Of a stretch of 64,000 bases of DNA, positions 24,199-26,897 are shown piece by piece. Both the position numbers and the translations under genes were made by a program. The notes beneath the pieces were generated by a model that saw nothing but the letters and a program-made list of their open reading frames with translations, searched no databases and had not been told where the DNA came from. Origin of the DNA: Lachnospiraceae bacterium (lineage in GTDB: Bacteria; Bacillota; Clostridia; Lachnospirales; Lachnospiraceae); contig JAFRIW010000042.1 of the NCBI GenBank assembly GCA_017432565.1, forward strand, positions 1-64,000. Direction: 5' to 3'. Each line of letters starts with the position of its first letter. Position 1 is the first letter of the stretch.

Positions 24199-24325
24199 GG
24201 CACCGGACCACCTGACAAAATGCGGGTCCGACCCCCTTCGTTCGTTTGTATCTTTGACGTCATTGTGATAAAATTTCTTATATATGCGCAAAAACAAAAA
24301 CATGTAAGAACAGGGGTGAAAATAT
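24199..24325 (+). promoter_or_regulatory. intergenic region with probable promoter for the GH13-like gene
   Basis: After the helicase stop there is an imperfect inverted repeat, CGGACC (near 24204) with GGTCCG (near 24226), which may weakly terminate. An AT-rich segment follows with TTGACG near 24255 and TTATAT/TATATA about 18-19 bases on. A GGGGTG ribosome site precedes the ATG at 24326. The exact -35/-10 pairing is ambiguous. Confidence 0.35.
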
Positions 24326-26323
24326 ATGTCTGAAAAATTTATTGCACAGATCTCACCTGCATATGATCTGCAGCCCGGAACACGGGTCCTGCCTGAAGGC
24401 GTCGTCTTCAGCGTGGTCCTCAGAGACTGCAGTGAGTGCGGCCTGATTCTTTATCATCTGCCTGAATTAAAGCCGGTCCGGATCCCCTTTGAGGACGAAT
24501 ACCGCATCGGCAGTCTGTACTCGGTGCTGGTCCGTGATATTAATCCGAGAGAGTGGGCTTACCGCTATTATCGCGATGATTACGAGTTTGTCGACTCCTG
24601 TGCGCGGGAGCTGATGCGCGTGAAAACCGGCGATACACAGGCCCTCTACGGCAAGCTTTTCCCCATTCCGGAGTGCAGTGCACTTCCGGCGCCCGCTCTG
24701 CCGGAAATGCTCTGGCAGGACGAAGTTCTTTACTGCCTGCATGTCAAAGGCTTTACCGCCTCCAGGACATCCCGCGTAAAGAAGAAGGGAACCTTTGCAG
24801 GTCTGACGGAAAAGATCCCGCATCTGGTCCGTCTGGGCGTGACAGCGGTTGAGCTGCTTCCTCTCTATGAACTGCGGCCTGAAAGCTGCACCACCGGAAA
24901 GGTGAAGTCCCGCCGGCTGAAGCCCGAGACAGAGACAGAGCGCCCCAACTACTGGAACTTCGGCGAAGGGTGCTATTTTGCCCCCAAGGCCTCTTATTCA
25001 GACGGAACATCCCCGTCCGATGAGCTGTACCGCATGATTGAGAAGCTTCACGAAGCCGGCATCCGCGTCTATATGCAGCTTTATTTCCCGGGGACTGTCT
25101 CCATCCAGACTGCGCTGGAAGCGGCCCGGTTCTATAAGCTGAACTATCACGTGGACGGCTTCCACCTGAAGGGAGACGACGCATCCCTCAAGCTGATCGC
25201 CTCGGATCCCATCCTGTCTGATTCCGCACTGTTTTACTACAGCTTCCCGTACGCGGAGCTGCAGGAAGTGGACCGCGAGAATCCGGAGAGCGGCATTCCG
25301 TCGGTTTATCACCTCGCGGAGTACAATGACCGGTTCAGCACGCTGCTGCGCCGTTTCGTGAAAAGCGATGATCTGGTGCTGCGGGAATTCATCCAGGAAT
25401 TTGTCCGCGTCGTCCCGGATCACGGCAATGTCCATTACGTGACCAATTACGAGGGCTTCACACTGATGGACCTGGTTTCCTACAACCGAAAGCACAACGA
25501 AGAAAACGGTGAGGACAACCGCGACGGAAATGATTACAACGAGAGCTGGAACTGCGGCGTGGAAGGAAAGAGCAGACGGGGTGTTGTCCGCCAGCTGCGG
25601 CTTCGCCAGATCAAAAACTTCCTCGCGCTCCTGTTTCTGTCACAGGGAACGCCGCTTCTGTACGCCGGCGACGAGATGTGCAATTCCCAGGACGGCAACA
25701 ACAACGCCTATTGTCAGGACAATGAGCTGGGCTGGACCTGCTGGCGCGACACGGCGGACAGCCGCATGATTCTTTCCTTCACGGAACAGATCAGCGCCTT
25801 CAGAGCTTCCCACGGCGTCTTCCGGGCGAAGAAGCCTTTTACCATGACCGATACGCTGGTCTGCGGCTACCCGGACCTTTCCTTCCACGGCAAAGAAGCC
25901 TGGAAGCCGGATTTTGGCGGCTACAATCACACGATCGGACTGCTGCTGTGCGAAAATTACGCGCCTGCCGAAGAGACCTTCGGGGACGATGAGGCAGAGG
26001 AGCAGGAGGGCGTCAGACTCCTGTATCTCGCCGTCAATATGCACTGGCATCCCCAGGAGCTGGGCGTGCCGACACCGCCCGCCGGGACGAAGTGGTATAA
26101 GGTGATGGATACCTTCGAGGAGGAATCCTTCCCCGGAACGCCCGTTCCGATCCGCGATGCGCAGCAGATTCTGGTGCCGGGCAGAACCATTCAGATTCTG
26201 TGCAATCTTCCGGACAAAGGCGGCAGGACAGTGCCGGAGACCGTGAAGAACTCTGCGGCGGAACCCGAAGCGAAGTCCGGAACAGAATCCGATAAAGAGG
26301 ACACAGATGCAGGAAAGAAATAA
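24326..26323 (+). CDS. GH13-fold protein (GlgX/isoamylase-like) lacking catalytic residues
   Basis: A 665-residue homologue of glycogen-debranching or isoamylase-type glycosidases. An N-terminal CBM48-like beta domain (about 10-110), a barrel (about 130-500) and a C-terminal beta domain (about 505-630) are seen. Structural landmarks are intact: LVSYNRKHNEENGEDNRDG (384-401) and GTPLLYAGDEMCNSQDGNNN (441-460). The catalytic positions are not. Region I, normally DVVYNH, reads QLYFPG (251-256). Region II, normally GFRFD, reads GFHLK (278-282), losing the invariant Arg and the nucleophile Asp. Region IV, normally SHDGFTL, reads NYEGFTL (374-380). No region III Glu is apparent. It may be a glucan-binding or regulatory pseudoenzyme. 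It is preceded by its own intergenic region and overlaps the next gene by 17 bases. Confidence 0.8.
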   Translation: MSEKFIAQISPAYDLQPGTRVLPEGVVFSVVLRDCSECGLILYHLPELKPVRIPFEDEYRIGSLYSVLVRDINPREWAYRYYRDDYEFVDSCARELMRVKTGDTQALYGKLFPIPECSALPAPALPEMLWQDEVLYCLHVKGFTASRTSRVKKKGTFAGLTEKIPHLVRLGVTAVELLPLYELRPESCTTGKVKSRRLKPETETERPNYWNFGEGCYFAPKASYSDGTSPSDELYRMIEKLHEAGIRVYMQLYFPGTVSIQTALEAARFYKLNYHVDGFHLKGDDASLKLIASDPILSDSALFYYSFPYAELQEVDRENPESGIPSVYHLAEYNDRFSTLLRRFVKSDDLVLREFIQEFVRVVPDHGNVHYVTNYEGFTLMDLVSYNRKHNEENGEDNRDGNDYNESWNCGVEGKSRRGVVRQLRLRQIKNFLALLFLSQGTPLLYAGDEMCNSQDGNNNAYCQDNELGWTCWRDTADSRMILSFTEQISAFRASHGVFRAKKPFTMTDTLVCGYPDLSFHGKEAWKPDFGGYNHTIGLLLCENYAPAEETFGDDEAEEQEGVRLLYLAVNMHWHPQELGVPTPPAGTKWYKVMDTFEEESFPGTPVPIRDAQQILVPGRTIQILCNLPDKGGRTVPETVKNSAAEPEAKSGTESDKEDTDAGKK

Positions 26324-26897
26324 AACAAGGGCACCTCTGACGGCGGAGAAGACCCTGGCCCATTTTAAGACCATCACGCGCCACAGAATGCTGGTCGCAA
26401 AAGGCTGTTTTGCCGTTGGACTGTATTATCAGGGTCTAACGCATGATTTATCCAAGTATGCGCCGACTGAGTTTCTCGTCGGCGCGCGCTACTATCAGGG
26501 AAACCGCAGCCCGAACAATGCCGAGCGGGAGGCGGAGGGGCTTTCGCGCGCCTGGATTCATCATAAGGGACGCAATCGTCATCACTATGAATACTGGTAC
26601 GATTATCCGACAGACTGGACTTTCATCGATCAGGAGGCCAATCCCTCCGGCACGATCCCGGTCAAGATGCCGGGACGCTATGTCGTGGAGATGTTCATGG
26701 ACCGCATTGCCGCCTGCAAGGTATACCGCGGGAAAGATTACACCGATGCGGATCCGCTTGCGTATTTTTCCAGGAACGCGTCGCACAACAAAATGCATCC
26801 GGAGACAGCTGCTCTGCTGAAAAAGCTTCTTGTCATGCTCGCCGAGGAGGGCGAGGAAAAGACATTCGCTTACATCAGAAGACATCTGGTCCGGTAA
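26307..26897 (+). CDS. DUF5662 family protein
   Basis: Function unknown. The 196-residue protein has the conserved histidine-rich motifs that I associate with DUF5662: YYQGLTHDLSKYAPTEF near residue 45 and WIHHKGRNRHHYEYWYDYP near residue 90. The HD and HHxxxxxHH patterns suggest a metal-binding helical protein, possibly HD-like. That is inference. There is no signal peptide or membrane segment. The start overlaps the GH13-like gene. Confidence 0.75.
   Translation: MQERNKTRAPLTAEKTLAHFKTITRHRMLVAKGCFAVGLYYQGLTHDLSKYAPTEFLVGARYYQGNRSPNNAEREAEGLSRAWIHHKGRNRHHYEYWYDYPTDWTFIDQEANPSGTIPVKMPGRYVVEMFMDRIAACKVYRGKDYTDADPLAYFSRNASHNKMHPETAALLKKLLVMLAEEGEEKTFAYIRRHLVR

Follow-up and report, generated by a model that had tools for sequence, protein, structure and literature searches.

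Whether a protein that keeps the scaffold of a glycogen debranching enzyme while every catalytic region is altered represents a gene in decay, an enzyme of another kind, or a protein retained for a non-catalytic role is the question raised by one gene in the window, a 64,000-nucleotide stretch of a Lachnospiraceae contig (JAFRIW010000042.1). An earlier note on this DNA had favoured a selected, non-catalytic role over decay. We refer to this protein and its degenerate homologues as pseudo-GlgX.

An intact gene with a GlgX-type fold

The gene is an intact open reading frame on the forward strand, running from an ATG at position 24326 to a stop at 26323 and encoding 665 amino acids. It is preceded by a 127-bp intergenic region that contains, by direct reading, the ribosome-binding site AGGGGTGA (24312 to 24319, forward strand) 6 nt ahead of the ATG, in agreement with the earlier description of a gene with its own ribosome site. 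An N-terminal signal peptide was absent on inspection by eye, and the protein is presumed to be cytoplasmic. The TIGR02100 GlgX profile matches it with an E-value of 2e-80 and 270.6 bits, under the equivalog cut-off of 640.9 bits.

The protein is also matched by solved GlgX, TreX and isoamylase (ISA) chains. In an AlphaFold2 model built on an alignment of 69 relatives (pLDDT 87.6, pTM 0.89), residues 4-631 align with Streptomyces venezuelae GlgX (Z 45.1), rice ISA1 (Z 44.7), Chlamydomonas ISA1 (Z 43.3), Escherichia coli GlgX (Z 42.2) and TreX (Z 42.1), so that nearly the whole length shares the fold of the GlgX/TreX/isoamylase group (CAZy GH13_11, TIGR02100) at Z-scores of 42-45. In the model, the GH13_11 architecture is complete in its three domains, namely the N-domain, the (beta/alpha)8 barrel and the C-domain, which argues that the catalytic substitutions described below are not an alignment artefact. 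The landmarks GFTLxDLVSY..KHN..NG..DG..SWNCGxEG and DE..GNNNxYCQDN are also common to GlgX and pseudo-GlgX, and the conservation of scaffold and landmarks claimed from the sequence is thereby upheld. Reading frame, profile, model and structure matches together point to a non-catalytic GlgX/isoamylase-like (GH13_11) protein.

Loss of the catalytic residues and of a loop

Twelve canonical GlgX of the same bacterial family served as the reference for the catalytic positions. Where these carry D, H, R, D, E, H and D at the seven GH13 positions, the window protein has Q251, G256, H280, K282, Y305, Y375 and E376; gone are the nucleophile Asp, the acid Glu, the transition-state Asp and the region I Asp and His. 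Region I (25076 to 25093, forward strand, as are all features of this gene) reads QLYFPG (Q251-G256) for canonical DVVFNH, and region II (25154 to 25171) reads DGFHLK (D277-K282), with Arg replaced by His and the nucleophile Asp by Lys. Tyr305 (25238 to 25240) stands where region III would supply the general-acid Glu, and region IV (25445 to 25453) has N374-Y375-E376 for canonical C-H-D. The alignment, in which Asp/Glu/Asp are absent from the catalytic positions, bears out the replaced motifs of regions I, II and IV and the missing region III Glu that the earlier note had read from the letters.

This degeneracy is common to 145 aligned pseudo-GlgX, taken from a one-genome-per-genus sampling of a family that is most probably Lachnospiraceae together with named genome contigs, nearly all of them Lachnospiraceae, and it lies far beyond chance. 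None of the 145 has an intact Asp/Glu/Asp triad, and the nucleophile Asp is missing in 144; the exception (L071) carries that Asp but neither the Glu nor the second Asp. Residues at the nucleophile and acid positions are freely variable among these proteins, and the region III segment that bears the acid is deleted altogether in 19 of them, a subclade of about 560-600 amino acids. Additionally, the loop between regions I and II (25094 to 25150 in the window, judged by alignment spacing) falls 44 residues short of its canonical counterpart. The spacing between the two regions is 26-27 in 145/145 pseudo-GlgX versus 71 in 12/12 canonical proteins, a fixed deletion present in all of the former and none of the latter. 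We take the deleted segment to be the place where GH13 enzymes bear the domain B loop.

Retained sugar contacts

In the S. venezuelae GlgX-acarbose complex, the sugar in subsite -1 is contacted by Trp222, Tyr224, His271, Asp342, Glu378, Trp380 and His449, and the other sugars by Arg212, Glu470, Asn534 and Tyr536 (PMC9530166). These contacts were mapped through the alignment with solved GlgX (chain index equal to the published numbering plus 3), leaving out Arg212, which sits in a low-confidence modelled loop. The catalytic members of the set are lost in pseudo-GlgX and the Trp380 position is mostly lost. Non-catalytic contacts, in turn, are shared with the GlgX/TreX/isoamylase group. W210 and F212 (24953 to 24961), which correspond to Trp222 and Tyr224, are Trp in 145/145 and Tyr or Phe in 145/145 sequences. 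E396 (25511 to 25513; Glu470) is Glu in 142 of the 144 pseudo-GlgX that cover the position, versus Trp in 10/12 canonical GlgX of the same family, while N460 and Y462 (25703 to 25711; Asn534 and Tyr536) are Asn in 143/143 and Tyr or Trp in 143/143. Among the columns invariant in canonical GlgX, only 69 of 195 are kept at 85% or more in pseudo-GlgX. We infer from the aligned residues that this pattern fits a protein that would hold a glucan chain and no longer cut it; the aromatic and Asn residues that are kept could also be there for folding.

As a separate observation, Trp is the usual residue in the canonical GlgX of this family (L056 and others) at the site that in other GlgX holds the sugar-contacting Glu470.

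Phylogeny, distribution and selection

Pseudo-GlgX was found in 124 of 150 sampled genera, the genus of the window counted. Maximum-likelihood trees of the sampled members place the degenerate proteins in one clade (SH-aLRT 99 and 100), which falls inside the GlgX homologues of several phyla, separate from the other GH13 proteins used as outgroup, and adjoins the GlgX of Streptomyces, Nostoc, Runella, Deinococcus and Bradyrhizobium. The tree check named in the earlier note thus yields one conserved clade inside GH13_11. Pseudo-GlgX belongs to GH13_11 by fold and descent and fails the defining test of active GlgX, from which it differs in lacking the catalytic residues and the 44-residue loop and in a profile score that falls far short of the equivalog cut-off.

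A scan of 196 genomes of the class found, besides members of the family itself, a single canonical GlgX (G338, from another family) and weak generic GH13 matches, with no further pseudo-GlgX, which on this sampling suggests that pseudo-GlgX is confined to Lachnospiraceae. One contig with a pseudo-GlgX (L015) is labelled as an uncultured Bacteroides metagenome-assembled genome, which probably reflects mis-binning of Lachnospiraceae DNA.

For the pair formed with L005, the nearest relative (84% identity, 474 codons), dN/dS is 0.09 (dN 0.098, dS 1.10), below 1 as the proposal of selection had implied. L006 gives 0.23, a value close to saturation (dS 1.8) that was left out of the argument. Similarly, 33 columns of the pseudo-GlgX alignment are invariant across 69 sequences.

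Glycogen metabolism in the same genomes

Glycogen synthase scored above its cut-off in 149 of 150 genera, and GlgD and phosphorylase were present in 48 and 47 of the 50 genera examined; this near-universal distribution indicates that the glycogen pathway is present. Canonical GlgX, by TIGR02100, was found in 44/150 genera. For 83 of the 123 pseudo-GlgX-positive genera (the window's excluded), no canonical GlgX was detectable with that profile, and pseudo-GlgX is often the sole GlgX-type protein of the cell. The window's own genome is an exception, with a second, canonical GlgX on contig C47 whose catalytic residues are intact at 7/7 positions.

A search for GlgX, type I pullulanase and GDE_C found none at true-member level in 25 of 26 pseudo-GlgX-positive genomes, where divergent enzymes under the cut-offs are possible. 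G006, counted among the 25, shows a partial match to pullulanase, and in G025 GDE_C is matched weakly, barely above the low cut-off of that profile. Conversely, 23 sampled genera have glycogen synthase and neither pseudo-GlgX nor canonical GlgX, which implies that pseudo-GlgX is dispensable for glycogen synthesis. No glycogen genes adjoined pseudo-GlgX in the neighbourhoods read.

A wider observation is that most genera carry glycogen synthase and phosphorylase without a recognised GlgX, type I pullulanase or GDE_C.

Gene neighbourhood and DUF5662

The gene directly downstream (26307 to 26897, forward strand) encodes a 196-residue DUF5662 protein (PF18907) and overlaps the end of the pseudo-GlgX gene by 17 nt. 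Its ATG lies inside that end with its own AGAGGA site, an arrangement in which the two genes are likely to be translationally coupled. DUF5662, downstream on the same strand, is the most constant neighbour of pseudo-GlgX (47 of about 77 loci) and is mostly adjacent, close or overlapping; the outer neighbours differ between loci, with a UvrD-like helicase and DUF1292 often upstream.

Foldseek found no significant match for DUF5662 among solved structures. Its model is all-helical, with HD domains of PgpH and HD-GYP proteins as the best structural matches (Z 6.8 or less), and its invariant residues are H26, H46-D47, H85-H86, H92-H93 and D132. On this basis DUF5662 may be a metal-dependent hydrolase of the HD type. 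A functional pseudo-GlgX/DUF5662 pair is possible. DUF5662 as an obligate partner was ruled out, since 18 of the 23 genomes without pseudo-GlgX carry it as well.

Elsewhere in the family, the shorter pseudo-GlgX with a deleted region III (L058-L075, L191) often adjoin luxS and a gene for a periplasmic sugar-binding-type protein.

Proposed role and alternative explanations

We consider it probable, from the conserved residues, that pseudo-GlgX takes part in intracellular glycogen metabolism by binding glucan without catalysis, as a scaffold or regulator. It would have arisen once from an active GlgX, in or near the ancestor of the bacterial family, by loss of the catalytic residues and of the 44-residue region I-II loop, while barrel, N- and C-terminal domains and the residues gripping the remainder of the glucan chain were all kept. 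The protein would then bind glycogen or maltodextrin inside the cell, leave it uncut, and could serve as scaffold or regulator for enzymes that act on glycogen (GlgP, GlgA, GlgB), much as plant ISA2 or BAM4. A bolder and rather speculative version is that pseudo-GlgX, as the sole GlgX type in most Lachnospiraceae, would be a family-defining glycogen sensor or scaffold; with DUF5662, made from an overlapping gene, as an HD-type hydrolase, it might link glycogen status to a small-molecule signal.

Decay, the simplest account of a protein in which every catalytic motif is lost, can practically be dismissed. The frame is open in almost all relatives, dN/dS is 0.09, and the gene, with its 33 invariant columns, forms a single clade maintained across 124 of 150 genera; together with the kept sugar contacts, this sustains the claim of selection for a non-catalytic role. 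Nor do we give much credit to the idea that the protein is still an enzyme, in which other residues would catalyse in a rebuilt site and supply the debranching that most genomes seem to be without. Such an enzyme would account for the 25 of 26 pseudo-GlgX-positive genomes that by gene content make and degrade glycogen, yet in which neither GlgX nor type I pullulanase nor GDE_C scores above cut-off; this reading is very improbable in a family with no conserved Asp/Glu pair at the catalytic positions and the acid deleted in 19 proteins.

Two further alternatives concern partners. Pseudo-GlgX could pair, as a subunit without activity, with an active canonical GlgX of its own cell, on the model of ISA2 and ISA1. 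Beyond this plant precedent, the window's genome does encode a canonical GlgX in which the seven catalytic residues are complete, and the two types show a weak tendency to occur together (odds ratio 3.7, p 0.03, uncorrected for phylogeny). However, the 83 of 123 pseudo-GlgX-positive genera in which TIGR02100 detects no canonical GlgX imply that such a partnership is not the general role of pseudo-GlgX, and we regard this explanation as improbable. Exaptation to a function unrelated to glucan, for instance signalling or protein binding together with DUF5662, draws on the linkage of the two genes on one strand (47 of about 77 loci, for the most part side by side and often overlapping, amid varying outer neighbours) and on the HD-like character of DUF5662, with its His/Asp set and its matches to PgpH and HD-GYP. 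It seems unlikely overall, since the sugar-contact residues are conserved far above what a non-glucan role needs and the occurrence of DUF5662 in 18 of 23 genomes without pseudo-GlgX means that the pairing is not obligate.

Relation to known systems and significance

The closest parallel is plant ISA2. Its substitutions are given as region I Asp to Glu together with changes of the region II Arg/Asp, the region III Glu and the region IV His/Asp (PMC3787081), which are the same catalytic positions as those substituted in pseudo-GlgX, with the GH13_11 fold kept. ISA2 is described as forming complexes with ISA1 and adding non-catalytic functions in starch formation (PMC12510319). Pseudo-GlgX differs in being a bacterial clade with its own region I-II deletion, which the accounts of ISA2 consulted do not mention, and whereas ISA2 has an active partner, pseudo-GlgX usually has no active GlgX in the same genome, although the window's genome does. 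A dead isoamylase-type protein seems to have arisen a second time here, independently and in bacteria. The inactive plant beta-amylases BAM4 and BAM9, which have a role in glucan turnover (PMC12892837), are also catalytically dead relatives of glucan hydrolases, but they belong to the unrelated family GH14 and the likeness is one of principle only.

Searches of the open-access literature on GH13 pseudoenzymes, DUF5662 and inactive GlgX in Lachnospiraceae turned up no earlier account of this protein. A probable member of the clade has been annotated before: in the Butyrivibrio hungatei genome, glgX2 (648 amino acids, without CBM48) is listed as a second glycogen debranching enzyme (PMC5716241), and judged by its size it is probably a pseudo-GlgX. 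Similarly, a count of two glgX homologues for Blautia obeum (PMC10395257) may illustrate how such genes enter gene counts. Gene-content studies may therefore count pseudo-GlgX as a working debranching enzyme, and the debranching capacity of Lachnospiraceae may be overstated. Pseudo-GlgX is kept across about four fifths of the genera of a large gut and rumen family, dominant in the gut, and which enzyme opens the glycogen branches in most Lachnospiraceae becomes a testable question.

STAS-domain genes beside canonical GlgX

Active-looking plasmid GlgX of Streptomyces, Nostoc, Runella and Deinococcus (L195-L198) adjoin or are flanked by genes for STAS-domain proteins or anti-sigma-antagonists. 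A canonical GlgX of the window's family (L077) likewise has a STAS-like neighbour and an RsbW-like open reading frame nearby (locus L077:3314-3616). The STAS-neighboured GlgX group together in the tree, and GlgX is tied in this way to partner-switching regulators across several phyla.
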